Shown here piece after piece: positions 1,999-15,545 of a stretch of DNA of 36,275 nt. How positions within the stretch are numbered: the stretch's first letter is position 1; every line of letters begins with the position of its first letter. Source of the DNA: Betaproteobacteria bacterium (GTDB lineage Bacteria > Pseudomonadota > Gammaproteobacteria > Burkholderiales > Rhodocyclaceae); contig VEPA01000205.1 in NCBI GenBank assembly GCA_012026675.1, positions 1-36,275 on the forward strand. Direction: 5' to 3'. The position numbers and the translations under genes are program-made. The notes under the pieces are model-generated. The model did not search any database. It worked only from the letters and a program-made list of their open reading frames with translations, and was not told where the DNA came from.

Positions 1999-4662
1999 AT
2001 GAAGAAGGCGGACTTCTGGAAGAGTGACTGGTTTTTCGGCGTCGCAGTCAGCATTTTGGTGCTGATTCTTGGCAATGGAAACCTGTTGCAGGGTCTGGAG
2101 CGCAAGGCTTATGACATGGGTGTGGCGGCGACCACGCGTGCACCCTCGGACAAGGTGGCTGTCATTGCCATCGACAAACCCAGTCTCGACAATATTGGCC
2201 GCTGGCCGTGGTCGCGCGACATCATGGCCGACATGGTGGAAAAACTGGCCGGCGCCAAGGCCAAGGTGATCGCCACCACGGTGTTCTACTCCGAGCCGCA
2301 GCGGGATCAGGGCTTGGCGTATATCAACAAGCTGATCGAAACCTGCGGCGTGACGCTGCCGGCGATGGCTGCTGGTGTAGCGCCTGTCGCCGCAGCGCCG
2401 GTACCTGGGGAGGCCGCCGCAGTTCCAGCCCCGGCTGCCGCCCCGGAAAGCGTGGCCGCGCCCGCAGCTTCCTCATGTCCGCAGATAGAGTCGATACTTA
2501 TCGAGGCGGACCAGAAGCTGAATACCGACCGCCGCCTGGCGGATGCCTTCGGCAAGGCCGGCAATGTGGCATTGCCGATGTTGTTCGTGCTGGGCGAGCC
2601 GCGCGGCCGGCCGGACAAGGATCTGCCCGAATTCATTAGAAAGAATGCGGTCAAGCTGACGGGTGGCGCGGACGCTCCTCCTTATCCGACCCTCGGTGTT
2701 GACGCTGGAGTGATCGAGCCCTTGGGCAAGGTGGTGACCGCCATCGGCCACCTCAACGTAACTCCGGATGTGGATGGCGCGATTCGGACCGAACCCCTGG
2801 TGCTGGCCCATTTCGACCTGGCCTATCCGTCCTTGTCCCTGCTGGTCGCGGCCAAGAGCCACAACCTGAACGTGGCGGATATCCAGGTCACGGCGGGCAG
2901 TGCGGTCAAGCTGGGCAAGCTCAAGATCGGCACCGACATCGATACGCGGATGCTGACCTTCTATTACAAGGATCGTGAAGGCGGTCTTCCCGCCTTTCAG
3001 GTCGATTCGTTCTTCGACGTCAAAAGCGGCAAGATTCCCTATGACAAGTATCGCGACAAGATTGTCCTGATCGGACCGACCTCGTCATCGGTGGGCAGCG
3101 TCTTCGTTACCCCCATCAGTCCATCGATGCCTGCCGTTCTGATGCAGGCGCACGCGGTCTCCAGCCTGCTTTCCGAACACTTCTTCGTAGCTCCGACCTG
3201 GGGCTTCTGGGTCGAAAAGCTGGTATTCCTGCTCGTCGCCGCCTACCTCATCGGCGTGCTGCCGCGCATCAAGGCCGGCATGGCCGCGGGAATCACGGCA
3301 GGGGTGCTGCTGGCATTGATCGCCACTCATTTCGCGCTGATGACGACGCAGTTGATGTGGCTGCAGTTGATGGTGCCGGCAACGCTGCTGCTGGTCGGCC
3401 ATTTGCTGCTGACGGTGAAACGTTTCGTCGTCACGGAACGCGGCAAGGAAAAATCGGATGCCGATTCGGCCGAGTCCAACCGCATGCTGGGTCTGGCCTT
3501 CCAGGGCCAGGGGCAACTCGACATGGCCTTCGACAAGTTCCGCAAGTGCCCGATGGACGATGCCCTGATGGAGAACATGTACAACCTGGCACTGGATTTC
3601 GAGCGCAAACGCCAGTTCAACAAGGCGGAAGCGGCGTTCCGTTACATATTCGATTTCAATCCGAAATTCCGCGATATCGAATCCCGCGTCAATCGCGCCC
3701 GGCAGCTTTCGGAAACCGTGATTCTCGGCAGCGGCGGAGGCGGGCGCAGCAACGCCAGCCTGATCGATACCGCCGGCAATGTCGAGAAACCGATGCTGGG
3801 CCGATATGAAATCGAGAAGGAACTGGGCAAGGGCGCGATGGGCGTGGTCTATCTCGGTCGCGATCCGAAAATCAATCGCATCGTTGCGATCAAGACCATG
3901 GCGCTGTCGCAGGAGTTCGAGGCCGATGAACTGGTCGAGGTCAAGGAGCGCTTCTTCCGCGAGGCCGAAACCGCCGGGCGTCTCAACCATCCCAACATCG
4001 TCACCATGTTCGATGCCGGAGAGGAACACGACCTGGCATACATCGCGATGGAGTTTCTCAAGGGCAAGGACCTGGTTCCATACTCCAAGCAGGGCAACCT
4101 GATGCCCTTGCCGCGCGTCATGAGCATCGTTGCGCGGGTTGCCGATGCCTTGTCCTACGCGCACCAGAACAATGTCGTGCATCGCGACATCAAGCCGGCC
4201 AACATCATGTACGAGCCGGAATCAGATCAGGTCAAGGTGACGGACTTCGGCATCGCGCGGATCACCGATTCGTCGAAGACCAAGACGGGGATGGTGCTCG
4301 GCACGCCGAGCTACATGTCGCCTGAGCAACTGGCCGGCAAGAAGATCGACGGCCGTTCCGACCTATTCTCGCTCGGTGTCATGCTCTATCAGATGTCCTG
4401 TGGCAAGCTGCCCTTCGAGGGCGATTCGATGGCGCAACTGATGTTCCGCATTGCCAATGAACCGCATCCGGACATTCGCGGAGTCAACCCCGGACTGCCG
4501 GACTGCCTGGTGGCAATTATCGACAGGGCGATGACCAAGGATCCGGATGCGCGCTACCAGACCGGTGCTGAATTTGCGCAAGACATCCGCACCTGCATGA
4601 CAATGGCGAGTGCCGGTAGCAGCGCCGCCGCCGGCGATTCCGGCGTCGATATCAGCATCTAA
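1999..4662 (+). CDS. CHASE2-sensor, membrane-anchored Ser/Thr protein kinase with TPR-like linker
   Basis: CHASE2 motif (VAVIAIDKPSLDNIGRWPWSRD), three hydrophobic segments, kinase motifs GKGAMGVVYLG, VVHRDIKPANIM, DFGIAR, GTPSYMSPEQL. Confidence 0.93.
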   Translation: MKKADFWKSDWFFGVAVSILVLILGNGNLLQGLERKAYDMGVAATTRAPSDKVAVIAIDKPSLDNIGRWPWSRDIMADMVEKLAGAKAKVIATTVFYSEPQRDQGLAYINKLIETCGVTLPAMAAGVAPVAAAPVPGEAAAVPAPAAAPESVAAPAASSCPQIESILIEADQKLNTDRRLADAFGKAGNVALPMLFVLGEPRGRPDKDLPEFIRKNAVKLTGGADAPPYPTLGVDAGVIEPLGKVVTAIGHLNVTPDVDGAIRTEPLVLAHFDLAYPSLSLLVAAKSHNLNVADIQVTAGSAVKLGKLKIGTDIDTRMLTFYYKDREGGLPAFQVDSFFDVKSGKIPYDKYRDKIVLIGPTSSSVGSVFVTPISPSMPAVLMQAHAVSSLLSEHFFVAPTWGFWVEKLVFLLVAAYLIGVLPRIKAGMAAGITAGVLLALIATHFALMTTQLMWLQLMVPATLLLVGHLLLTVKRFVVTERGKEKSDADSAESNRMLGLAFQGQGQLDMAFDKFRKCPMDDALMENMYNLALDFERKRQFNKAEAAFRYIFDFNPKFRDIESRVNRARQLSETVILGSGGGGRSNASLIDTAGNVEKPMLGRYEIEKELGKGAMGVVYLGRDPKINRIVAIKTMALSQEFEADELVEVKERFFREAETAGRLNHPNIVTMFDAGEEHDLAYIAMEFLKGKDLVPYSKQGNLMPLPRVMSIVARVADALSYAHQNNVVHRDIKPANIMYEPESDQVKVTDFGIARITDSSKTKTGMVLGTPSYMSPEQLAGKKIDGRSDLFSLGVMLYQMSCGKLPFEGDSMAQLMFRIANEPHPDIRGVNPGLPDCLVAIIDRAMTKDPDARYQTGAEFAQDIRTCMTMASAGSSAAAGDSGVDISI

Positions 4663-4672
4663 GGGCCGAACC

Positions 4673-5494
4673 ATGGACATGAGTGCTGTTCTCGAAATAG
4701 TCACCCGCAGCGATCCGGGCATGGTGCGCTCGAATAATGAAGACGCCGTCATGGCGGATGCGGCGGGCGGCTTTGCCGTGCTGGCCGATGGCATGGGTGG
4801 CTACAACGCCGGCGAGGTTGCCAGCGGCATGGCAACGACCTTGCTTGGCACTGAACTGGCAAAGGCCTTTGTCGCGCGTGATCCGAGCAGCATTGATGGT
4901 TCCGGCAAGTCCTGGGCGCAGGTCACGCTGGAAGCTGAAATGATCCGAGTCAATACCGCCATCTATCAGGCGGCGCAGAGCCAGCCGCAGTATGCAGGTA
5001 TGGGCACGACGCTCGTGGTGGGCGTGTTCCACGACAATCGGGTAACCGTTGGCCACATTGGAGATTCCCGGCTTTACCGCATGCGTGGCGAAGATTTTCA
5101 GCAGATAACGCGCGACCATTCGCTGCTGCAGGAACAGATCGACGCCGGCATGATCACTCCCGAGCAGGCGCGCCATTCACAGAACAAGAATCTGGTGACC
5201 CGCGCGGTCGGCGTCGATCCTGAAGTGGTGCCCGAAATACACGATCATGAGGTCTTGCCGGGCGACGTGTACCTGTTTTGTTCCGACGGGCTGAACGACA
5301 TGGTTGACGACGAGGAGATCGGCATGACTCTGGGCGCTCTTTCGGCGAACCTGGAACTGTGCTCAATGCAGTTGATTCAAATGGCCAACGACAACGGCGG
5401 CCGCGACAATGTTTCGGTAATCCTGGTCAAGGTAAAGGGCGAGTACCCAGCCGCGCGTGGCTGGTGGGCCCGTTTCATGACCTGGTTCAAGTAA
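4673..5494 (+). CDS. PP2C-family Ser/Thr protein phosphatase
   Basis: SNNEDA, LADGMGGYNAGEVAS, GDSRLYRMR, ITRDHSL, FCSDGLNDMV, NGGRDNVSVI. Confidence 0.95.
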   Translation: MDMSAVLEIVTRSDPGMVRSNNEDAVMADAAGGFAVLADGMGGYNAGEVASGMATTLLGTELAKAFVARDPSSIDGSGKSWAQVTLEAEMIRVNTAIYQAAQSQPQYAGMGTTLVVGVFHDNRVTVGHIGDSRLYRMRGEDFQQITRDHSLLQEQIDAGMITPEQARHSQNKNLVTRAVGVDPEVVPEIHDHEVLPGDVYLFCSDGLNDMVDDEEIGMTLGALSANLELCSMQLIQMANDNGGRDNVSVILVKVKGEYPAARGWWARFMTWFK

Positions 5495-5527: not shown

Positions 5528-6424
5528 ATGGCTAAGCTCATACTCAGCATGGAAACCACGATGCTCAAGGAAATTCCCTTGACCAAGGAGCGCACCACCA
5601 TCGGGCGCAAACCGCACAACGATATCCAGATCGACAACCTGGCGATTTCTGGTGAGCACGCGGTCGTGATCACCATACTTAATGATTCCTTTCTCGAAGA
5701 TCTGGGCAGCACCAATGGCACCTTCGTCAATGGCCAGTCTGTCAAGAAACATTTCCTCAAGAACGGCGACACCATTGAGCTGGGCAAGTACCGTCTGAAG
5801 TATGTCAGCGAACTGCCACAGCAAACTTCGAACGCGGATTTCGAGAAGACCATGATTCTGCGTCCTGGTGCCGCCCAAAAGCCTGCTGCGCCGCCGTCAG
5901 CCCCTGCCCCTGGCGCCGCCGTACCACCCGCCCCTCTTGCACCGGCTGCAGGCATGGCTCCGCCACCGTCCACGGCGGCGCCGGCAGCCTCGCCTGGCGC
6001 TGTGCCGTCCCATCTTACAACATTGCCAGGCACGGCTCCGCCACCGGTCGCGGCGGCCCCTGCAGCCCCGCCTTCTGCCGTACCGCCGGCCCATCTTTCA
6101 ACTTCCCCCGGCATGGCTCCGCGGCCACCCGCGGCGGCACCGGCGACGACTCCGGCGCTACCGTTGGGCGTGATACAGATTCTTTCGGGGGGCAATGCCG
6201 GCAAGGAGATGGAACTGACCAAAACCCTCACCACCCTGGGCAAACCGGGTGTGCAGGTCGCGGTCATCGCACGTCGTCCGCACGGCTACTTCATTACCCA
6301 TGTGGAAGGCGCGAGCTTTCCGGCAGTCAATGGCAAGACGCTGGACGCCCAGGCGCATCAACTGGCGGACCACGACGTGATCGAGTTGGCCGGAACCAAA
6401 ATGGAATTCTTCCTGAAGACCTGA
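5528..6424 (+). CDS. FHA-domain protein: N-terminal FHA, Pro/Ala-rich repeated linker, degenerate second FHA-like domain
   Basis: TTIGRKPHNDIQIDNLAISGEHA...LEDLGSTNGTFVNG; C-terminal GVIQILSGGNAGKEMELTKTLTTLGKPG...LADHDVIELAGTKMEFF. Confidence 0.9.
   Translation: MAKLILSMETTMLKEIPLTKERTTIGRKPHNDIQIDNLAISGEHAVVITILNDSFLEDLGSTNGTFVNGQSVKKHFLKNGDTIELGKYRLKYVSELPQQTSNADFEKTMILRPGAAQKPAAPPSAPAPGAAVPPAPLAPAAGMAPPPSTAAPAASPGAVPSHLTTLPGTAPPPVAAAPAAPPSAVPPAHLSTSPGMAPRPPAAAPATTPALPLGVIQILSGGNAGKEMELTKTLTTLGKPGVQVAVIARRPHGYFITHVEGASFPAVNGKTLDAQAHQLADHDVIELAGTKMEFFLKT
5921..6160 (+). repeat. Three imperfect in-frame tandem repeats of 81/78/~80 bp encoding VPP(A/S)xLxxxPGMAPPPxAAAPAxxPxA
   Basis: Repeat starts at 5921, 6002 and 6080 (gtaccacccgcccctctt / gtgccgtcccatctta / gtaccgccggcccatctt), each containing ggcatggctccgccacc or a close variant. 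Confidence 0.8.
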
Positions 6425-6454: not shown

Positions 6455-8680
6455 TTGAAACAGTACCTCCCTCGCTACGTTCTTGGACTTGTGATTCTTC
6501 TGGTCTTGCTCGGCCATTCGGCGCGCATTTACCAGATTCCTTTCATCAGTCACATGGACTCGCTGATCTATGACGCGAAAGTACGTTTGACCATGCCGCA
6601 AGGGGGCGATCAGCGTGTGGTGATTCTGGATATCGACGAAAAATCCCTGGCTGAGCAGGGGCGATGGCCGTGGGGCCGCGACAAGCTGGCGACCCTGATG
6701 AACAAGCTGTTCGATCAGTACGGCATCAAGCTGGTCGGTTTCGACGTCGTGTTTGCCGAGCCCGACGACAGTTCCGGCCTCAAATCGCTGGAGTCCCTGG
6801 CGAAGAAGGAACTTAAGGACATCACCGGCTTTCAGTCGGCACTGCGCGAACTGCGTCCGCAGCTCGACCACGATGCCCGCTTCGCCGCGGCGCTAAAGAA
6901 CCGGCCGGTCATTCTCGGTTACTATTTTTCCAGTCTGGAAGGAGGCATCAGTTCCGGTGCAGCTCCCGAGCCGGTGTTCCCGGCCGGAACCTTCAGTGGC
7001 CGCCGCATAGCATTTACGCAATGGACCAGTTTCGGCGGCAATCTGCCCGAGTTCCAAAAGGCTGCTGCCGGAGCGGGTCATTTCAATCCGCTGGTGGACA
7101 TTGACGGGACGACGCGCCGGGTACCTTTGCTGGTCGAGTACAAAGGGGCCTATTACGAGTCCCTCTCGCTGGCGATGGTGCGTAATCTGCTCGGCAATTT
7201 GCCGATTATCCCCGGCTACCCGGAAAATGCGCCGTCGTCCTATGCCGGCATGGAGTGGCTGGATCTGAAAGCAGCCGGCGGCGGCGTGATGCGTATTCCG
7301 GTGGATGAAAACGCGGCGACGCTGATTCCCTATCGCGGCTATCAGGGAAGTTTTTCCTATTTCTCGATTACCGATGTGCTCAACGACCGTGTGCCCAAGG
7401 AAAAGCTCGCCGGCAAAGTGGTCGTGGTCGGCACTACGGCGCCTGGACTCATGGATTTGCGGGCCACCCCGGTGGGCGCCGCCTATCCGGGGGTCGAGGT
7501 GCACGCCAATTTGATTGCAGGCATGCTGGATGGTGTGGTCAAGCACAAACCCCCCTACATACTCGGCGCCGATGTACTGCTGGTGCTGATTGCAGGCGCG
7601 GTGATGGTCTTCCTTTTGCCCATGCTGTCGCCGTTGCGGGCGACAATGGTCGGGTTGATTGTTCTCTTGCTGTTGCTCGGCGTGAATTTCAGTTTCTGGC
7701 ACTATTTCAACGTGGTCTTGCCGCTGGCCAACGGCATGATCGCGATCATCCTCCTGTATGCGATGAACATGTCATGGGGCTACTTTGTCGAGTCGCGAAC
7801 CAAGCGGCAGTTGACCGGGTTGTTCGGCCAGTATGTGCCGCCGGAACTGGTCGAGGAGATGAGCCGTGACCCCGAAAACTACAGCATGGCCGGGCGCAAG
7901 GCGGAACTCACCGTGCTGTTTTCGGACGTACGCGGATTTACCACGATATCGGAAGGTCTCGAACCCGACGAGTTGGCCACATTGATGAACCAGTATCTGG
8001 GCGCGATGACCCTGGTGGTACGCAAGCATCGCGGCACGCTGGACAAATACATCGGCGACGCGATAATGGCATTTTGGGGTGCGCCGGTCGACGATCCGGA
8101 ACATGCCAGGAACGCAGTGCTTACCGGGCTGGAAATGCATGTTGCGCTGCAGGAGCTGAACAAGGACCTGATGGCGCGAGGCTGGCCCGAGCTTAAAATC
8201 GGCGTTGGCGTGAATTCCGGTCCGATGACGGTCGGCGACATGGGCTCCCCGGTGCGCCAGTCTTACACCGTGATGGGTGATGCGGTCAATCTTGGTTCGC
8301 GCCTGGAGGGCATCACCAAGCAGTACGGAGTGGGTATGATCGTGGGCGAGGCCACCCGCGAATTGCTGAAGAAGGAATTTGTATTCCGCGAACTGGATCG
8401 GGTGCGAGTCAAGGGCAAGGAAGATCCGGTCGGGATTTATGAACCGGTCGGTGAGGACGGCAAGGTCGCGCGCGAGGATATGGAGGAGATCAAACTGTGG
8501 AATCAGGCCTTGCGTGCCTATCGGGCGCAGGACTGGGATCAGGCGGAAGTGGCGCTGATGAATCTGCAGCGCATCAAGCCGCGCTATGTCTACGATCTAT
8601 ACGTCAAACGCGTTGAACGTCTGCGCAAAGAGCCGCCCGGAGAAAACTGGGACGGCGTCACCATTTTTGAGACCAAGTAG
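6455..8680 (+). CDS. CHASE2-class III adenylate/guanylate cyclase (TTG start)
   Basis: CHASE2 (VVILDIDEKSLAEQGRWPWGRD), TM helices, cyclase FSDVRGFTTISE, TLDKYIGDAIMAFWGAP, YTVMGDAVNLGSRLE. Confidence 0.94.
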   Translation: MKQYLPRYVLGLVILLVLLGHSARIYQIPFISHMDSLIYDAKVRLTMPQGGDQRVVILDIDEKSLAEQGRWPWGRDKLATLMNKLFDQYGIKLVGFDVVFAEPDDSSGLKSLESLAKKELKDITGFQSALRELRPQLDHDARFAAALKNRPVILGYYFSSLEGGISSGAAPEPVFPAGTFSGRRIAFTQWTSFGGNLPEFQKAAAGAGHFNPLVDIDGTTRRVPLLVEYKGAYYESLSLAMVRNLLGNLPIIPGYPENAPSSYAGMEWLDLKAAGGGVMRIPVDENAATLIPYRGYQGSFSYFSITDVLNDRVPKEKLAGKVVVVGTTAPGLMDLRATPVGAAYPGVEVHANLIAGMLDGVVKHKPPYILGADVLLVLIAGAVMVFLLPMLSPLRATMVGLIVLLLLLGVNFSFWHYFNVVLPLANGMIAIILLYAMNMSWGYFVESRTKRQLTGLFGQYVPPELVEEMSRDPENYSMAGRKAELTVLFSDVRGFTTISEGLEPDELATLMNQYLGAMTLVVRKHRGTLDKYIGDAIMAFWGAPVDDPEHARNAVLTGLEMHVALQELNKDLMARGWPELKIGVGVNSGPMTVGDMGSPVRQSYTVMGDAVNLGSRLEGITKQYGVGMIVGEATRELLKKEFVFRELDRVRVKGKEDPVGIYEPVGEDGKVAREDMEEIKLWNQALRAYRAQDWDQAEVALMNLQRIKPRYVYDLYVKRVERLRKEPPGENWDGVTIFETK

Positions 8681-8685
8681 GAATA

Positions 8686-9456
8686 ATGAAGGTACGCATC
8701 CTCGGTTGCAGCGGTGGAATTGGCGGGCGGCATCTGCGCACGACCTCGCTGCTGGTTGACAACGACATTCTGATCGACGCCGGAACCGGTGTCGGCGATC
8801 TGGCGATTGCCGAACTCGCCCAGATCGATCACGTCTTCATTACGCACTCGCATCTGGACCACCTTGCCTGCCTGCCTTTTATGGTCGATACGGTCGGCGA
8901 CATGCGCAGTCGTCCGGTGATTGTGCACGCGACCGAGGCGACACTCGAAATCATCCGTACGCATGTTTTCAACTGGGCCATCTGGCCAGATTTCAGCGTG
9001 ATACCCTCAGCAGAAAAGCCCTTCATGCGATTTGACCCGATACGGGTGGGCGAAAGCCTGGACATCGAAGGTCGCAAAGTAATTCCGCTGCCGGCGAATC
9101 ACACGGTGCCCGCCGTGGGCTATCAACTGGATTCCGGGCATGCCAGCCTGGTGTTTACCGGCGACACCGGCCCTTGCCCTGATTTGTGGAAGCAGGTGAA
9201 TGCGATTCGCAACCTGCGCTATCTGATCATCGAGTGCGCGTTCTCCGACAGGGAAAGGCGGCTGGCCGTGGCGTCCCTGCATTTTTGCCCGAGCATGCTT
9301 CTGGAAGAACTGGCAAATCTGCAACGGGATGCAGAGATATTCATCACCCATCTAAAGCCCGGACAAATCGAATTGACCATGCAGGAGATCGAAGACTGCA
9401 TCGGCAACGAGTTTCGTCCCGGAATGCTGCAGAACAATCAACTCTTCGACTTCTGA
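8686..9456 (+). CDS. Metallo-beta-lactamase-fold protein, likely class II cAMP-phosphodiesterase type
   Basis: ITHSHLDHLACLPFMVD motif, LVFTGDTGPCPDLW, FITHLKPGQ. Confidence 0.8.
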   Translation: MKVRILGCSGGIGGRHLRTTSLLVDNDILIDAGTGVGDLAIAELAQIDHVFITHSHLDHLACLPFMVDTVGDMRSRPVIVHATEATLEIIRTHVFNWAIWPDFSVIPSAEKPFMRFDPIRVGESLDIEGRKVIPLPANHTVPAVGYQLDSGHASLVFTGDTGPCPDLWKQVNAIRNLRYLIIECAFSDRERRLAVASLHFCPSMLLEELANLQRDAEIFITHLKPGQIELTMQEIEDCIGNEFRPGMLQNNQLFDF

Positions 9457-9458
9457 CC

Positions 9459-10526
9459 ATGACTGCGACGGTGAGCGTTGACCTGTTGGCCACCCTGCAA
9501 CCCCTCATGTCGCTGGGCAGCAAGGGCTTGAGCGAATTGCTGCCCCTCTGCCGCACGCACTCCTTTCCGCGTGCCACCGATCCGTTTTCCGTGAAGGACT
9601 GGAGTGGTCAGGTCGTATATCTGGTACGTGGCCAGCTTCTGGTGAAATTGCTGGACGGTGCTTCGCGGGTATTGGTCGGCGGCCACGATCTGGCAGTGGC
9701 TCCCGTGTCGCGTGGCGGAAACTCTCCGCGTTTCAGCAAGGCGATTACCGATGTCGAATTGCTCAGTTTGGAGGAGGATCCGCTGGATATCGTAGTGACC
9801 TGGAACCAGTTGGCCAGTTCAAGCGCGATCCAGAAGAACCTCCCCGATCAAACCGATTGGCGAATGATGTCCAGCATGTTCGCCGTAGACAATCTTACGG
9901 TTGGTGCCTTTGCTTCCCTGCCTCCGGCGAACATCCAGGCGTTGCTGGGCAAGTTCGTCCGTGTTCCGGCAAAGCGTGGCGAGACAATAATCAGGCAGGG
10001 CGACCCCGGCGATTACTACTACCTGATTGAAAGCGGGCGCTGCAAGGTTTCGCGCCTGGTCGCCGGCGCTTCGGTGCAGTTGGCGGAGCTCAAGGAGGGT
10101 GACGCCTTTGGCGAAGAGGCGCTGGTGGCCGATACGGAACGCAATGCGACCGTGGTGATGAATACCGATGGCACCTTGTTGCGCTTGTCCAAACAGGACT
10201 TCAACCAGTTGTTGCTCGCCCCGCTGCTGCAGAAAGTCTCTGGCGACGAAGCCGAGCGACGGGTTGCCGCCGGTGCGCAATGGATCGACGTGCGCTTCCC
10301 GGCCGAATATCAGAGCGACGGTTATCCAGGCGCCATCAACATCCCGCTTAACGACATTCGTCCGGCATCGGCGTCGCTCGATCCGACCATTGAATACATT
10401 GTTTATTGCCAGACGGGACGTCGCAGTTCCGCCGCGGCATTTCTGCTTTCCCAGCGCGGACTTCATGCCACTCTTCTTGACGGCGGCATGAGGGCGCACG
10501 CTGGCGCCATGGAGTCAAGCAAATGA
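9459..10526 (+). CDS. Cyclic nucleotide-binding domain protein with C-terminal rhodanese domain
   Basis: CNB cassette GETIIRQGDPGDYYYLIESGRCKV...GDAFGEEALVADTERNATVV; rhodanese IDVRFPAEY...YIVYCQTGRRSSAAAFLL. ATG at 9459 is 2 nt after the upstream stop. Confidence 0.9.
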   Translation: MTATVSVDLLATLQPLMSLGSKGLSELLPLCRTHSFPRATDPFSVKDWSGQVVYLVRGQLLVKLLDGASRVLVGGHDLAVAPVSRGGNSPRFSKAITDVELLSLEEDPLDIVVTWNQLASSSAIQKNLPDQTDWRMMSSMFAVDNLTVGAFASLPPANIQALLGKFVRVPAKRGETIIRQGDPGDYYYLIESGRCKVSRLVAGASVQLAELKEGDAFGEEALVADTERNATVVMNTDGTLLRLSKQDFNQLLLAPLLQKVSGDEAERRVAAGAQWIDVRFPAEYQSDGYPGAINIPLNDIRPASASLDPTIEYIVYCQTGRRSSAAAFLLSQRGLHATLLDGGMRAHAGAMESSK

Positions 10527-12898
10527 GTGCCGTACCCGCCGCCCCCGCCGAAACAGCCGCGTCCGATGTGGACAGCCGCCTGGCGTTCTTCAAGAACCTG
10601 CAGATCGTCACCAACAAGGTTCATGCCACCTCCAACATCGATGAAATCATGCTGGAGTTGTCCAGCGAAATCTGCAGCCTGTTCAACGCCGATCGCCTGA
10701 CGATCTATTCCATCGGCGAAGACAAGGCTTCCATCGTTTCAAAAATCAAGACGGGTCTGACTTCCTTCAAGGACCTGCGCCTGCCGATCGCGGACCAGAG
10801 TATTGCCGGTCATGTCGCGCTTTCCAAGAAGACCGTGAACATCCGTGACGTCTATGACGAAGCGGAGCTCAAGGCGATCAATCCTTCATTGCGTTTCCTG
10901 CAGGAAGTTGACAAGCGGACCGGCTATCGTACGAAGCAGATGCTGGTGGCGCCGGTTGTCGATTCGCAGAGCAACGAGTTGCTCGGTGTCGTTCAACTCA
11001 TCAACAACAAGGCAGGTACCCCATTTGCAGCGATCGCCCAGGAAGGCATCAAGGGGCTGTGCGAGACGATGGCGATCGCCTTTGCCCAGCGCAGCAAGCC
11101 GGCGCAGGTCGTCAAGACAAAGTACGACTTCCTGGTGTCCGATGCTGTCATATCGCCGCAGGAACTGGAACTGGCAGCACGCACTGCCAGGCGGAAGAAT
11201 CTCGACATCGAAGAAGTGCTGGTTAACGAGTTTCAGGTCAAGCATCAGGCCCTGGGTGTCGCCCTCGGGAAGTTTTTCAATGTGCCTTATGAACCGTTCA
11301 AGCCCGACCGCATCAAGCCCGCTGACCTGCTCAAGAACCTCAAGCGCGATTTTCTGGATCAGGGTAAATGGGCGCCCGTGGAAGAAGGGGCCGACGGTAT
11401 CATGGTGGTCTGCCTGGATCCCGAGCAGGTCAAGGGGTCGCGTATCGTCAACAATATTTTCCCGCGGGCGAAGTTCGTTTATCGGGTCACCACCAAGCAC
11501 GAATTCACGCAGATCCTCGATCAATTGTTTGGCGCCAGCGGCGTCCCCGGCTACACGGACGACAGTTCGGTCGGCGACCTGTTGTCTACTCTCGATCAGG
11601 ACGATTTGGAGGAAGGGGCCGTCAGCGACGATATTTCCGCCGCGGCCGACAACGAACTGGTCAAACTGGTCAACAAGATCATCATCGACGCCTATCAGCA
11701 GGGCGCGTCGGATATTCACATCGAGCCCGGTCTGGGCAAGGACAAGGTGTTGATCCGCTTCCGTCGCGATGGTTCGCTGGCGAAATACATCGAGGTTCCG
11801 GCCAGCTACCGCAATGCCATGGTGGCGCGCCTCAAGATCATGTGCGACCTCGATATTGCCGAGCGGCGCAAGCCGCAGGACGGCAAGATCAAGTTCAAGA
11901 AATATGGCCCGCTGGACATCGAACTGCGGGTGGCGACGATTCCCTCGACCGGCGGCGTCGAAGACGTCGTGATGCGTATCCTTGCGGGCGGCGAGCCGAT
12001 TCCACTGGACAAGCTGGGTGTGCTGCCGACCAATCTGGTCAAGCTCAAGGCGACCATTTCCAAGCCTTACGGACTCTTCTTCGTCTGCGGACCTACCGGT
12101 TCCGGCAAGACCACGACGCTGCACTCGGTGCTGGGTTATCTCAACACGGTGGACACCAAGATCTGGACCGCCGAAGATCCCGTCGAAATCACTCAGAAGG
12201 GCCTGCGCCAGGTTCAGGTCAACAAGAAGGTAATGGACTTCCCGATGGTGATGAAGGCCTTCCTTCGTGCCGACCCGGACATCATCATGGTGGGCGAAAT
12301 GCGCGACGCCGAGACCACCGGCATCGGTATCGAGGCCTCGCTGACCGGCCACCTGGTGTTCGCCACCCTGCACACCAACAGCGCGCCGGAATCGATCATT
12401 CGCCTGCTCGACATGGGCATGGACCCCTTCAACTTCTCCGACGCCCTGCTCGGGATTCTGGCTCAGCGCCTGGCCAAGCGCCTGTGCAAGTGCAAGGAGA
12501 GCTACACGCCGGACGCCGATGAAGTGCGGCTGTTCATGAAGGAGTATTGCAGCGAACTGGACAACACTGCGCCTTTCCTCAAGGACAAGGATGCGGCCTA
12601 CAAGGCAACACTCGAGCGGCTGATCAAGGACTACGGCAAGGACGGCCACCTCGTCTTCACCCGGGCCAAGGGCTGCGATACCTGTGGTGGCAGCGGCTAC
12701 AAGGGGCGTGTCGGCTTGCATGAGTTGATGATTGGTACCGAGCCGATGAAAAAATTGATCCAGGAGCACGCCCGCGTCGCGCAGTTGTTCGCCCAGGCGC
12801 TCGAGGACGGCATGCTGACCCTGAAGATGGACGGTCTGGAAAAGGCCCTGCAAGGGGTGACCGATCTCAAGCAGGTAAGGGCCGTCTGCATCAAGTAA
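10523..12898 (+). CDS. PilB/GspE-family type IV pilus/T2SS ATPase with N-terminal GAF domain
   Basis: GAF (VDKRTGYRTKQMLVAPVVD...GVVQLINN); ASDIHIEPG; Walker A GPTGSGKTTT; RADPDIIMVGEMRDAETT; GHLVFATLHTNSA; CDTCGGSGYKGRVGLHE. Start overlaps upstream stop (ATGA). Confidence 0.94.
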   Translation: MSAVPAAPAETAASDVDSRLAFFKNLQIVTNKVHATSNIDEIMLELSSEICSLFNADRLTIYSIGEDKASIVSKIKTGLTSFKDLRLPIADQSIAGHVALSKKTVNIRDVYDEAELKAINPSLRFLQEVDKRTGYRTKQMLVAPVVDSQSNELLGVVQLINNKAGTPFAAIAQEGIKGLCETMAIAFAQRSKPAQVVKTKYDFLVSDAVISPQELELAARTARRKNLDIEEVLVNEFQVKHQALGVALGKFFNVPYEPFKPDRIKPADLLKNLKRDFLDQGKWAPVEEGADGIMVVCLDPEQVKGSRIVNNIFPRAKFVYRVTTKHEFTQILDQLFGASGVPGYTDDSSVGDLLSTLDQDDLEEGAVSDDISAAADNELVKLVNKIIIDAYQQGASDIHIEPGLGKDKVLIRFRRDGSLAKYIEVPASYRNAMVARLKIMCDLDIAERRKPQDGKIKFKKYGPLDIELRVATIPSTGGVEDVVMRILAGGEPIPLDKLGVLPTNLVKLKATISKPYGLFFVCGPTGSGKTTTLHSVLGYLNTVDTKIWTAEDPVEITQKGLRQVQVNKKVMDFPMVMKAFLRADPDIIMVGEMRDAETTGIGIEASLTGHLVFATLHTNSAPESIIRLLDMGMDPFNFSDALLGILAQRLAKRLCKCKESYTPDADEVRLFMKEYCSELDNTAPFLKDKDAAYKATLERLIKDYGKDGHLVFTRAKGCDTCGGSGYKGRVGLHELMIGTEPMKKLIQEHARVAQLFAQALEDGMLTLKMDGLEKALQGVTDLKQVRAVCIK

Positions 12899-12901
12899 GG
12901 A

Positions 12902-14530
12902 ATGAACATGGAGAATTCCAGCGACCTGATTCGCCGTCTTGAGCAGTTGAATGCCATTGGCGCGGCGCTCTCCAAGGAGCGCGACATCAATCGGCTGCTC
13001 GAGAGCATCCTGATCGCGGCCAAGACCATTACCCATGCCGATGGCGGAACGCTGTACCGCATGACCGAGGACGGCCATGCGCTGCGTTTCGAGATCCTGC
13101 GCACCGACTCCCTGCACATAGCGATGGGCGGCACAACCGGCAAAGCCATCAACTTCCCGAACCTGCCGCTGACCAACGAGAAGGGCGAATCGAATGACTC
13201 GATGGTGGCCGCCTACGCCGCCATCCACGACAAGACAGTCAATATCGCCGATGCCTATACGGAGGCGGGTTTCGACTTTTCCGGCACGCGCAGCTTTGAC
13301 GAGCGCACCGGCTACCGCTCGCAGTCCTTCCTCACGGTGCCGATGAAGAACCACGAGGGCGAGATCATCGGCGTCTTGCAACTCATCAATGCCCAGGACC
13401 CGCAAACGCATCAAGTCACCCCGTTTTCGTCGGCCGACCAGAGCCTTGCCGAATCGCTCTCCTCGCAGGCGGCCATCGCCCTCACCAACCGGCTGCTGAT
13501 CACCCAGCTTGAAGAACTTTTCGAGGCCTTCATCAACCTGATCAACCTGGCGATCGACGAAAAATCGCCCTATACCGGCGGCCATTGCCAGCGCGTGCCG
13601 ACTCTTACCATGATGCTGGCCGAGGCGACAGATGCCATCCAGGAAGGTCCCCTGGCATCGTTCCACATGGATGAGCGCGATCGCTATGAACTCAAGATCG
13701 CCGGTCTGCTGCACGATTGCGGCAAGGTCACGACGCCGGTGCATGTGGTCGACAAGGCCACCAAGCTGGAGACGCTCTTCGATCGCATTCATCTGATCGA
13801 CACGCGTTTCGAGGTGCTCAAGCGGGACGCGGAGATCCACGCCTTGCGCAAGCAGCTTGCCCTGCGTGACAGCGTCGACGCCGCGGCAGAAGCCCGGGTC
13901 TGGCAGGAATTCCAGGATGATGTCCAGGCGCTGGACGCGGATCGCGACTTTTTGCGCAAGACCAACGTTGGCGGCGAGGCCATGAAAGAAGCCGACCAGC
14001 AGCGTGTGCGCGACATCGGCAGCCGCCGCACTTGGCGCAACGTCGATGGCGTCGACACCGAGTTCCTTACCGCCGACGAGATCGAGAACCTTACCATTCG
14101 TGCCGGCACCCTGACGATGAAGGAGCGCGACATCATCAATCACCACATCGTCGCCACCATCAAGATGCTGGAGCAACTGCCGTGGCCGCGGCATCTGGTC
14201 AAGGTGCCCGAATACGCCGGCGGGCATCACGAGCGCATGGATGGCAAGGGCTATCCCAAGGGACTGACCCGCGAGCAGATGTCGGTGCAGGCACGCATGA
14301 TGGGCATCGCCGATATTTTCGAGGCGCTTACTGCCCGTGACCGGCCCTACAAGCCGGGTATGAAACTGTCACAGGCCATGGGCATCATGGCGAAATTCAA
14401 GAAGGGCGGCCACATCGATCCCGACCTCTTCGATGTGTTCGTCAAGCAGGGCGTCTATCGGCGTTACGCGGAACAGTTCCTTGATGCGGGGCAGATCGAC
14501 GAGGTGGATGAGGCGGCCCTTACCGGGTAG
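12902..14530 (+). CDS. GAF-HD-GYP domain protein (putative cyclic-di-nucleotide phosphodiesterase)
   Basis: GAF (FDERTGYRSQSFLTVPM...GVLQLINA); HD LLHDCGKV; HHERMDGKGYPKGL. Confidence 0.92.
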   Translation: MNMENSSDLIRRLEQLNAIGAALSKERDINRLLESILIAAKTITHADGGTLYRMTEDGHALRFEILRTDSLHIAMGGTTGKAINFPNLPLTNEKGESNDSMVAAYAAIHDKTVNIADAYTEAGFDFSGTRSFDERTGYRSQSFLTVPMKNHEGEIIGVLQLINAQDPQTHQVTPFSSADQSLAESLSSQAAIALTNRLLITQLEELFEAFINLINLAIDEKSPYTGGHCQRVPTLTMMLAEATDAIQEGPLASFHMDERDRYELKIAGLLHDCGKVTTPVHVVDKATKLETLFDRIHLIDTRFEVLKRDAEIHALRKQLALRDSVDAAAEARVWQEFQDDVQALDADRDFLRKTNVGGEAMKEADQQRVRDIGSRRTWRNVDGVDTEFLTADEIENLTIRAGTLTMKERDIINHHIVATIKMLEQLPWPRHLVKVPEYAGGHHERMDGKGYPKGLTREQMSVQARMMGIADIFEALTARDRPYKPGMKLSQAMGIMAKFKKGGHIDPDLFDVFVKQGVYRRYAEQFLDAGQIDEVDEAALTG

Positions 14531-14787: not shown

Positions 14788-14803
14788 TGGCACAGCTTGT
14801 GCT
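14788..14803 (+). promoter_or_regulatory. Sigma54 (RpoN) -24/-12 promoter for the pilin gene
   Basis: TGGCACagcttGTGCT: matches TGGCAC-N5-TTGCW with one mismatch and exact GG/GC spacing; 47 nt upstream of the pilin ATG. Confidence 0.75.
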
Positions 14804-14850: not shown

Positions 14851-15030
14851 ATGAGCAAGTTGCAAAAAGGCTTTACCCTGATCGAACTGATGATCGTGGT
14901 TGCCATCATCGGCATTCTGGCCGCCATCGCCATTCCGCAGTTCACGGAGTACACCAAGAAGGCCGAGAACAAGGCCGCCCAGTCGGACGCGAAAAACGTA
15001 CTGACTTCGGCGATTGCAAATTCGACCTGA
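14851..15030 (+). CDS. Short type IV prepilin (59 aa; predicted mature 52 aa)
   Basis: [59 protein letters not shown]; prepilin peptidase site G|F, E5; RBS ccaggag upstream. Confidence 0.93.
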
Positions 15031-15092
15031 TTCAATCAACGGATATTTATTTTTCTATCTGGTTGGTTCGATCCTTATACAAAGGAAATTAA

Positions 15093-15545
15093 ATGAAAAA
15101 GATACTTTTGGTTGGTGTGGTTTCCAGCATTTTTTCGGCAAGCGTGTTTGCCGCGGCCTGTACCGGTACCGGCGGCGCACAGACGGTAGCGGCGCCGACG
15201 TCGACCACCGGCCCGACCGGCGAGCTCTGCGTCTGCAACGGCGGCACGGCGATCAAGAGCACCGTCAATGGCGGTTCCGGCACCCCTGTCGCGACGCCGG
15301 TGTTCATCAAGACCGGTTTCGACGTCCAGTGTTCAAATAACACCTTCGTCAGCTACAACGAAGTTTCCAACACCGCATTTGCCGTGGGATCGGGCTCGAT
15401 CAAGGGCAACCAGTCCTTCGCCGGCAACAGCAATGGTGGCGCGGTCGGGGTTAACGCGAAGTGCACCGGCACCAACGATGCATGTACCGCTGCCAACGTG
15501 ACGTCGGCTACCGCTGCCGCCGCGGCTGCCGCCGCTGGCTCCTGA
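15093..15545 (+). CDS. Small secreted protein with signal peptide, six Cys after the signal peptide and Ala-rich C-terminus; candidate globular partner of the short pilin
   Basis: MKKILLVGVVSSIFSASVFAA signal peptide; RBS aaagga; 62 nt downstream of the pilin; terminator follows. Confidence 0.8.
   Translation: MKKILLVGVVSSIFSASVFAAACTGTGGAQTVAAPTSTTGPTGELCVCNGGTAIKSTVNGGSGTPVATPVFIKTGFDVQCSNNTFVSYNEVSNTAFAVGSGSIKGNQSFAGNSNGGAVGVNAKCTGTNDACTAANVTSATAAAAAAAAGS

Follow-up and report, generated by a model that had tools for sequence, protein, structure and literature searches.

A GAF-MshEN assembly ATPase family and its putative cAMP signalling cluster

Gene order and features of the locus

The window, the whole stretch of 36,275 nucleotides analysed here, is contig 169 in a Sulfuritalea-type betaproteobacterial MAG of 3.58 Mb (86% complete), the nearest named relatives of which are Sulfuritalea and other Rhodocyclales. 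On its plus strand sucCD is followed by genes for a CHASE2 Ser/Thr kinase, a PP2C phosphatase, an FHA protein, a CHASE2 class III cyclase, a metallo-beta-lactamase-fold (MBL) hydrolase, a cyclic-nucleotide-binding (cNMP)/rhodanese protein, a GAF-MshEN-T2SSE motor, a GAF-HD-GYP protein and a 59-aa pilin, after which come a gene for a secreted 150-aa protein and then an ABC transporter (Table 1). The motor and HD-GYP reading frames, each with a GAF domain, lie exactly where the first-pass annotation had put them, 3 bp apart. The cyclase, which it had counted as four genes upstream, is three genes 5' of the motor, with the MBL hydrolase and cNMP-binding/rhodanese genes between. Gene gaps from the cyclase to the HD-GYP gene are 5, 2, -4 and 3 bp, the cNMP-binding/rhodanese and motor genes overlapping by 4 bp, so that this run of genes is very probably co-transcribed. 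An artefact of the MAG is rejected, since many independent genomes and named assemblies have their genes in the same order.

Table 1. Coordinates of the cluster genes and of the promoter-like site in the window
Feature	Position	Strand	Basis
CHASE2 Ser/Thr protein kinase	1999..4662	+	Pfam
PP2C protein phosphatase	4676..5494	+	Stp1 family above cut-off
FHA-domain protein	5528..6424	+	Pfam FHA
CHASE2 class III nucleotide cyclase	6455..8680	+	Pfam CHASE2 + Guanylate_cyc
Metallo-beta-lactamase-fold hydrolase	8686..9456	+	PF02112 PDEase_II, partial match
Cyclic-nucleotide-binding + rhodanese domain protein	9459..10526	+	Pfam cNMP_binding 81.2 bits
GAF-MshEN-T2SSE assembly ATPase, 791 aa	10523..12898	+	Pfam GAF, MshEN, T2SSE above cut-off
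GAF-HD-GYP protein, 542 aa	12902..14530	+	Pfam
Sigma54-type promoter-like site TGGCACAGCTTGTGC 5' of pilin	14788..14802	+	Pattern match
Short type IV pilin, 59 aa	14851..15030	+	N_methyl PF07963 41.6 bits

Two further observations concern the window itself. The sucD gene has an in-frame TAG at 1207-1209, where relatives have AAG; either one base has changed to give a nonsense codon or the assembly is wrong here. On the minus strand, a 1114-aa open frame (10886-14230) runs antisense to both GAF genes; lying opposite two conserved genes, it has probably arisen as a side effect of GC-rich coding sequence.

In 34 of 63 loci a prepilin gene lies on the strand of the motor and within 6 kb 3' of it; on the opposite strand there are none. 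The pilins 3' of the motor have 57-61 aa in Sulfuritalea and its relatives and full length elsewhere, and for 22 of 42 pilin genes a sigma54-like site stands ~60-110 bp 5'. In the window, the 59-aa pilin and then the secreted 150-aa protein (14851-15545) recall the Geobacter short pilin and its Spc partner; the secreted protein has no Pfam or NCBIfam family match. The same genome encodes three other assembly ATPases: TfpB (contig 186), a PilB-like protein with PilC (contig 59) and GspE (contig 44). T2SSF platforms are found only on contigs 179, 59 and 44, so the window motor would have to share one, with the reservation that a count from an 86%-complete MAG may have missed a platform.

The motor, its GAF domain and the HD-GYP neighbour

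The motor consists of a GAF domain (residues 20-191), an MshEN domain (199-340) and an ATPase (375-785). Its T2SSE match scores 357.6 bits (PF00437), and conservation of the Walker A, Walker B and His/Asp motifs (GPTGSGKTTT, DPDIIMVGEMRD and TLHTN) places it among the T2SSE (PilT/VirB11-like) ATPases. The earlier description of a GAF fused to a PilB motor holds for the fusion and fails for the name: the motor scores 449.2 bits against the PilB equivalog TIGR02538, below the cut-off of 675.65, and stays under the cut-offs of two more NCBIfam equivalogs of the PilB/TfpB/GspE set (TIGR02533, 405 against 630.25; NF053534, 365.5 against 850). In a tree built on the ATPase domain only, all 18 of the sampled GAF motors form one clade (support 100/99) apart from TfpB/PilB, GspE and the other sampled ATPases; long branches elsewhere blur the position of this clade, not its unity. 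A canonical PilB that happens to carry something fused to its N-terminus is rejected both by the separate clade and by the scores under the equivalog cut-offs. The picture of a simple GAF-PilB fusion understates the case: this family of motors is old, stands apart and has a signalling cluster of its own.

This family of bacterial motors is widespread and apparently undescribed. Of 30 genomes sampled at the order level outside the genus, 18 have the motor. The class sample adds 4 of 142 other genomes, and a phylum sample of 200 genomes adds ~28, the last mostly from another class. It occurs in most of the Burkholderiales families sampled, and divergent members, at ~40% overall identity, are found in other Pseudomonadota. 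Three loci titled Bordetella parapertussis (L133, L143 and L146) have environmental-style isolate names and look like betaproteobacterial MAG loci, and the label seems doubtful. Other sensor-motor fusions exist, as illustrated by an FHA-MshEN-T2SSE motor in genome G249 (L205:55-2691); given this protein and the MshEN motors, fusion of a sensor to a motor is already known as a kind.

The GAF domain had been set against the MshEN domain of canonical motors. It is indeed present, yet does not replace MshEN, which is kept in degenerate form (Pfam 25.0 bits, residues 252-339, plus a 53-residue motif region at 199-251). The c-di-GMP motif of MshE is a tandem of RLGxx(L/V/I)2xxG(L/V/I)2xxxxLxxxLxxQ (PMC5013675). 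In most members of the motor family, R, L, G, G and Q of motif I have become T, K, Y, A and A, and R, G, G and Q of motif II have become D, E, F and F; the motif is lost in both MshEN halves in nearly all of them. The NCBIfam model of this motif, NF053729, recognises a different motor encoded in this genome, on contig 59 (65.3 bits against 38), and neither the window motor nor the other family members tested. With the motif lost and NF053729 absent, gating of the motor by c-di-GMP through MshEN is disfavoured; apparently the usual site for a messenger has been lost, and the motor carries a different sensor.

ATPase-less GAF-MshEN proteins of 341-551 aa also recur (L066:7173-8198, on contig 34 of the MAG itself; L178:2417-3739; contig 42 of G018; contig 12 of G008). 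One of them directly adjoins a GAF motor, and they are possibly regulatory partners.

Both GAF domains exceed the Pfam cut-off (motor, 36.0 bits, residues 39-186; HD-GYP protein, 52.0 bits, residues 28-194). The N-terminal pattern first noticed in the two proteins occurs in full exactly twice when all six frames of the window are read; for RTGYR by itself, two occurrences compare with 0.1 expected per shuffled window, so that a chance motif is rejected. In the rest of the genome, two CyaB-like GAF-GAF-PAS-cyclases (L159:2927-5404 and L160:3696-6002), a possible second cAMP source with self-sensing GAFs, have the motif in their GAFs, and it is absent from the ordinary GAFs examined there. The proposed PDE/cyclase subtype is borne out by phmmer searches of the PDB: cAMP-bound CyaB2 GAFs come first for the motor (1ykd, E 2.4e-28), followed by PDE2A, PDE5, PDE10 and PDE6, and PDE5/6 GAF-A come first for the HD-GYP protein. 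The structural comparison suggested with it points the same way, as the AF2 model of the motor N-terminus (pLDDT 79.9) retrieves 1ykd, PDE and Lcd1 GAFs in Foldseek, and the matches to the AlphaFold models of both proteins comprise 4mcw, 1ykd, PDE5A, PDE2A, PDE10A and the cAMP-bound Lcd1 GAF. Similarity of fold alone does not fix the ligand, because the PtsP GAF 3trc superposes equally well on the motor GAF.

In CyaB2 GAF-B, cAMP is contacted by R291, T293, I308, D356 and N359 (PMC4411481), which align with R58, T60, I75, D130 and T133 of the motor. R58, T60 and D130 are invariant in 104 of 104 members (all 96 from Burkholderiales and all 8 distant ones), down to ~40% overall identity, and are kept in the 12 scorable loci that have no neighbouring cyclase. 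Position 133 is T in 95 of 96 Burkholderiales motors, N359 being replaced by T in other PDE-type GAFs as well; at position 75, 89 of 96 have I or V and the distant members an aromatic residue. Across 97 sequences, 28 of 172 GAF positions are invariant, and 16 stay so after the distant members are added, against only 3 in the MshEN region.

The NKFDE motif, a requirement for cGMP binding by PDE2 and PDE5 (PMC11977230), is incomplete in the window motor, with N-N-F-A instead of N-K-F-D. Burkholderiales motors keep N161 and F168, with K mostly changed to N162 and D mostly to A172; the distant members have K/R in 7 of 8 and D in 7 of 8. K/R is present at 163 in 91 of 96 Burkholderiales motors and E/D at 174 in 95 of 96, and this shifted K163/E174 pair could form a re-registered salt bridge that replaces the K-D pair of NKFDE. 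Isolated CyaB2 GAFb binds both cAMP and cGMP (PMC4411481), so the sequence does not separate the two.

Besides its GAF, the GAF-HD-GYP protein has a long linker helix (177-221) and the HD-GYP domain. The HD, GK, HHE and DGxGYP catalytic residues are each invariant or present in 80 of 81 homologues, as expected of an HD-GYP c-di-GMP phosphodiesterase. Its AF2 model (pLDDT 80.3) has PmGH of Persephonella marina (4mcw, TMt 0.75) as top Foldseek match, and PmGH likewise has a ~42-45-residue helix between GAF and HD-GYP; PmGH differs in organism and context, and the available part of its description reports no ligand for its GAF. Among the 81 homologues, D133, T136, N163, F175 and E184 of the GAF are invariant and D179 is kept in 76. 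The position of R291 is occupied by G48 (G in 78 of 81), and that of the NKFDE lysine by A or S. The first-pass annotation held that degenerate pockets would speak against ligand binding, and on this point the outcome is mixed: the direct contacts of the motor GAF are intact, but its NKFDE motif is altered and the HD-GYP GAF has glycine for R291.

Conservation of the cluster and sources of cAMP

Upstream neighbours were counted in 73 loci with at least 9.6 kb of 5' DNA and downstream neighbours in 80 loci with enough 3' DNA. Genes for FHA, PP2C and MBL proteins are near the motor in 72, 70 and 69 of the 73 loci, and those for the cyclase, the kinase and the cNMP protein in 60, 56 and 52. The GAF-HD-GYP gene lies near and 3' of the motor in 78 of 80, two of these matches (L063 and L065) being short, at ~30% identity, and possibly other GAF proteins. 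Another 14 distant loci have a different gene order, with the cyclase near the motor in 6 and the GAF-HD-GYP gene in 7. The CHASE2 kinase and cyclase are found together in 56 of the 73 loci and are both missing from 13, with the cyclase alone in 4 and the kinase alone in none; this joint loss suggests that the two sense one signal.

Two metal-binding Asp, the base-selecting Lys531 and Thr605, and the Asn/Arg transition-state residues of the CHASE2 cyclase are invariant in 78 homologues, and we take Lys531/Thr605 to be the adenylyl-type (ATP) pair of class III enzymes. Class III cyclases are present in 18 of 18 motor-bearing and 7 of 12 motor-lacking Burkholderiales genomes (Fisher p 0.006, a value that ignores ancestry and genome size), as well as in all 8 motor-bearing genomes of a phylum-wide sample. 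In the four genomes with cyclase-less motor loci that were searched, 2-11 class III cyclases are encoded elsewhere. G070 and G141 carry CyaA, a class I enzyme that makes cAMP; G070 has the motor and no class III match. No motor-bearing genome that was checked is without a cyclase of the adenylyl type, which in G070 is class I CyaA only.

Two more proteins of the cluster bear on cyclic nucleotides. The phosphate-binding cassette of the cNMP-binding/rhodanese protein, FGEEALVADTERNAT, aligns with PKG/PKA cassettes, and the protein is a predicted independent cyclic-nucleotide receptor. The MBL protein matches PDEase_II in part (44.9 bits against a cut-off of 23.7) and yeast PDE1 in the PDB (4ojv, 2.8e-6), with PhnP and the RNase Z family scoring similarly, which makes it at most a tentative candidate for a cyclic-nucleotide phosphodiesterase.

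Possible gating of the motor and its alternatives

The closest solved sequence relative of the motor GAF is in CyaB2, an Anabaena adenylyl cyclase (1ykd), with which it shares the subtype, R291/T293/D356 and, as I/V, I308. CyaB2 carries tandem GAFs with NKFDE on a cyclase, whereas the window motor has a single GAF with altered NKFDE. Single cAMP-gated GAFs exist, an example being Lcd1 (PMC8846402), a cAMP-dependent GAF-GGDEF protein of Leptospira (5w10; TMt 0.79 to the motor GAF), the output of which is c-di-GMP synthesis and not a motor. MshE of V. cholerae and PilB2 of C. perfringens are, like the window motor, assembly ATPases with an N-terminal second-messenger input, MshEN; the window motor differs from this type in lacking the c-di-GMP motif, in its extra GAF before MshEN and in belonging to a distinct ATPase clade. 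Tlr0485 of Thermosynechococcus (cited in PMC8846402), a cAMP-activated phosphodiesterase with the same GAF-HD-GYP order, is a precedent for cAMP gating of HD-GYP, and is not reported beside a pilus motor. In the Pil-Chp/CyaB/Vfr system of Pseudomonas, cAMP controls type IV pili via transcription, not directly on the motor (PMC11656802), and a 2024 review of PilB control describes cAMP via gene expression and does not mention GAF (PMC11656802). In the open-access literature, to which the search was confined with subscription papers outside it, no described GAF-PilB fusion was found, nor a precedent for a direct action of cAMP on the motor, whereas the HD-GYP arm has Tlr0485.

The GAF subtype, the contacts invariant in 104 sequences, the cyclase linkage and the co-occurrence across genomes lend strong circumstantial support to a cyclic-nucleotide-gated motor, as first proposed, with cAMP as the most likely ligand; the altered NKFDE, the glycine at the R291 position of the HD-GYP GAF and the 13 of 73 loci with no cyclase nearby weigh against it. 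On balance, the protein is probably a pilus assembly motor that is gated by cAMP and belongs to a cluster dedicated to cAMP signalling. On an outside signal, the CHASE2 cyclase in the membrane would produce cAMP, which would then bind the GAF domains of the motor hexamer, one per subunit. By way of the long helix of the GAF and of MshEN/N1, this binding would alter the docking of the motor or its ATPase activity, and with it the capacity to assemble the pilin from the gene just 3' of the cluster's GAF genes. cAMP from this source would also bind the GAF of the HD-GYP protein and change c-di-GMP breakdown, as reported for Tlr0485. The kinase, PP2C and FHA genes would contribute a level of control by phosphorylation, and removal of cAMP may fall to the MBL protein. 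In this scheme we infer the identity of the ligand, the allosteric effect and its sign, the pilin partner and the sharing of PilC and secretin encoded elsewhere.

It is unlikely that the motor GAF is a ligand-free structural module for dimerisation or docking, derived from a cyclic-nucleotide GAF, with regulation passing through the kinase, PP2C and FHA proteins. The incomplete NKFDE of Burkholderiales motors would fit such a module, as would FHA, PP2C and MBL genes that are more constant neighbours than the cyclase, and the FHA-MshEN-T2SSE motor makes phospho-input to motors of this kind plausible. A GAF with a structural role only is not, however, expected to keep R58, T60 and D130, which are among the invariant positions and persist at cyclase-less loci, and is disfavoured on that ground. 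Binding of some other small ligand by the GAFs (cGMP, another nucleotide or a metabolite), with the cyclase neighbours acting via the cNMP-binding/rhodanese protein, seems quite improbable. GAFs are versatile, that of DcpA binding GDP (PMC6416229, PMC8846402), the cluster has its own candidate receptor, and the HD-GYP GAF is closest to the cGMP-binding PDE5 GAF-A. Yet the cNMP gene is absent from 21 of 73 loci and the cyclase from 13, so that the linkage is not better explained in this way, and both the adenylyl-type residues of the cyclase and the class I CyaA of G070 and G141 argue for cAMP.

That the cluster is a loose signalling island, in which motor, cyclase and HD-GYP protein are neighbours but act separately, we consider very improbable. 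The cluster does follow sucCD, and in a few loci the MBL gene is the only one left next to the motor (L062); against this stand the tight packing of the genes from the cyclase to the HD-GYP gene, with an overlap or gaps of 2-5 bp, and the renewed association of the motor with a cyclase or a GAF-HD-GYP gene in the differently arranged distant loci.

Gating of the motor by cAMP extends to a broader, more tentative reading, to which we give somewhat less than an even chance: the motor clade would have swapped its messenger input, the c-di-GMP site of MshEN having decayed and a CyaB-type cAMP GAF now gating the motor, with the same cAMP pulse controlling c-di-GMP breakdown via the GAF-HD-GYP protein. 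If true, cAMP would switch the motor directly, with no need for transcription. Known before were the control of type IV pili by cAMP via transcription (Vfr) and direct control of the motor by c-di-GMP. With a conserved family that has an intact-looking cAMP pocket, direct gating of the motor is now testable, with clear residues for mutation and in cultured, non-pathogenic hosts (Sulfurisoma, Methyloversatilis), and cAMP may switch pilus building on or off directly at the motor, not only through gene expression.
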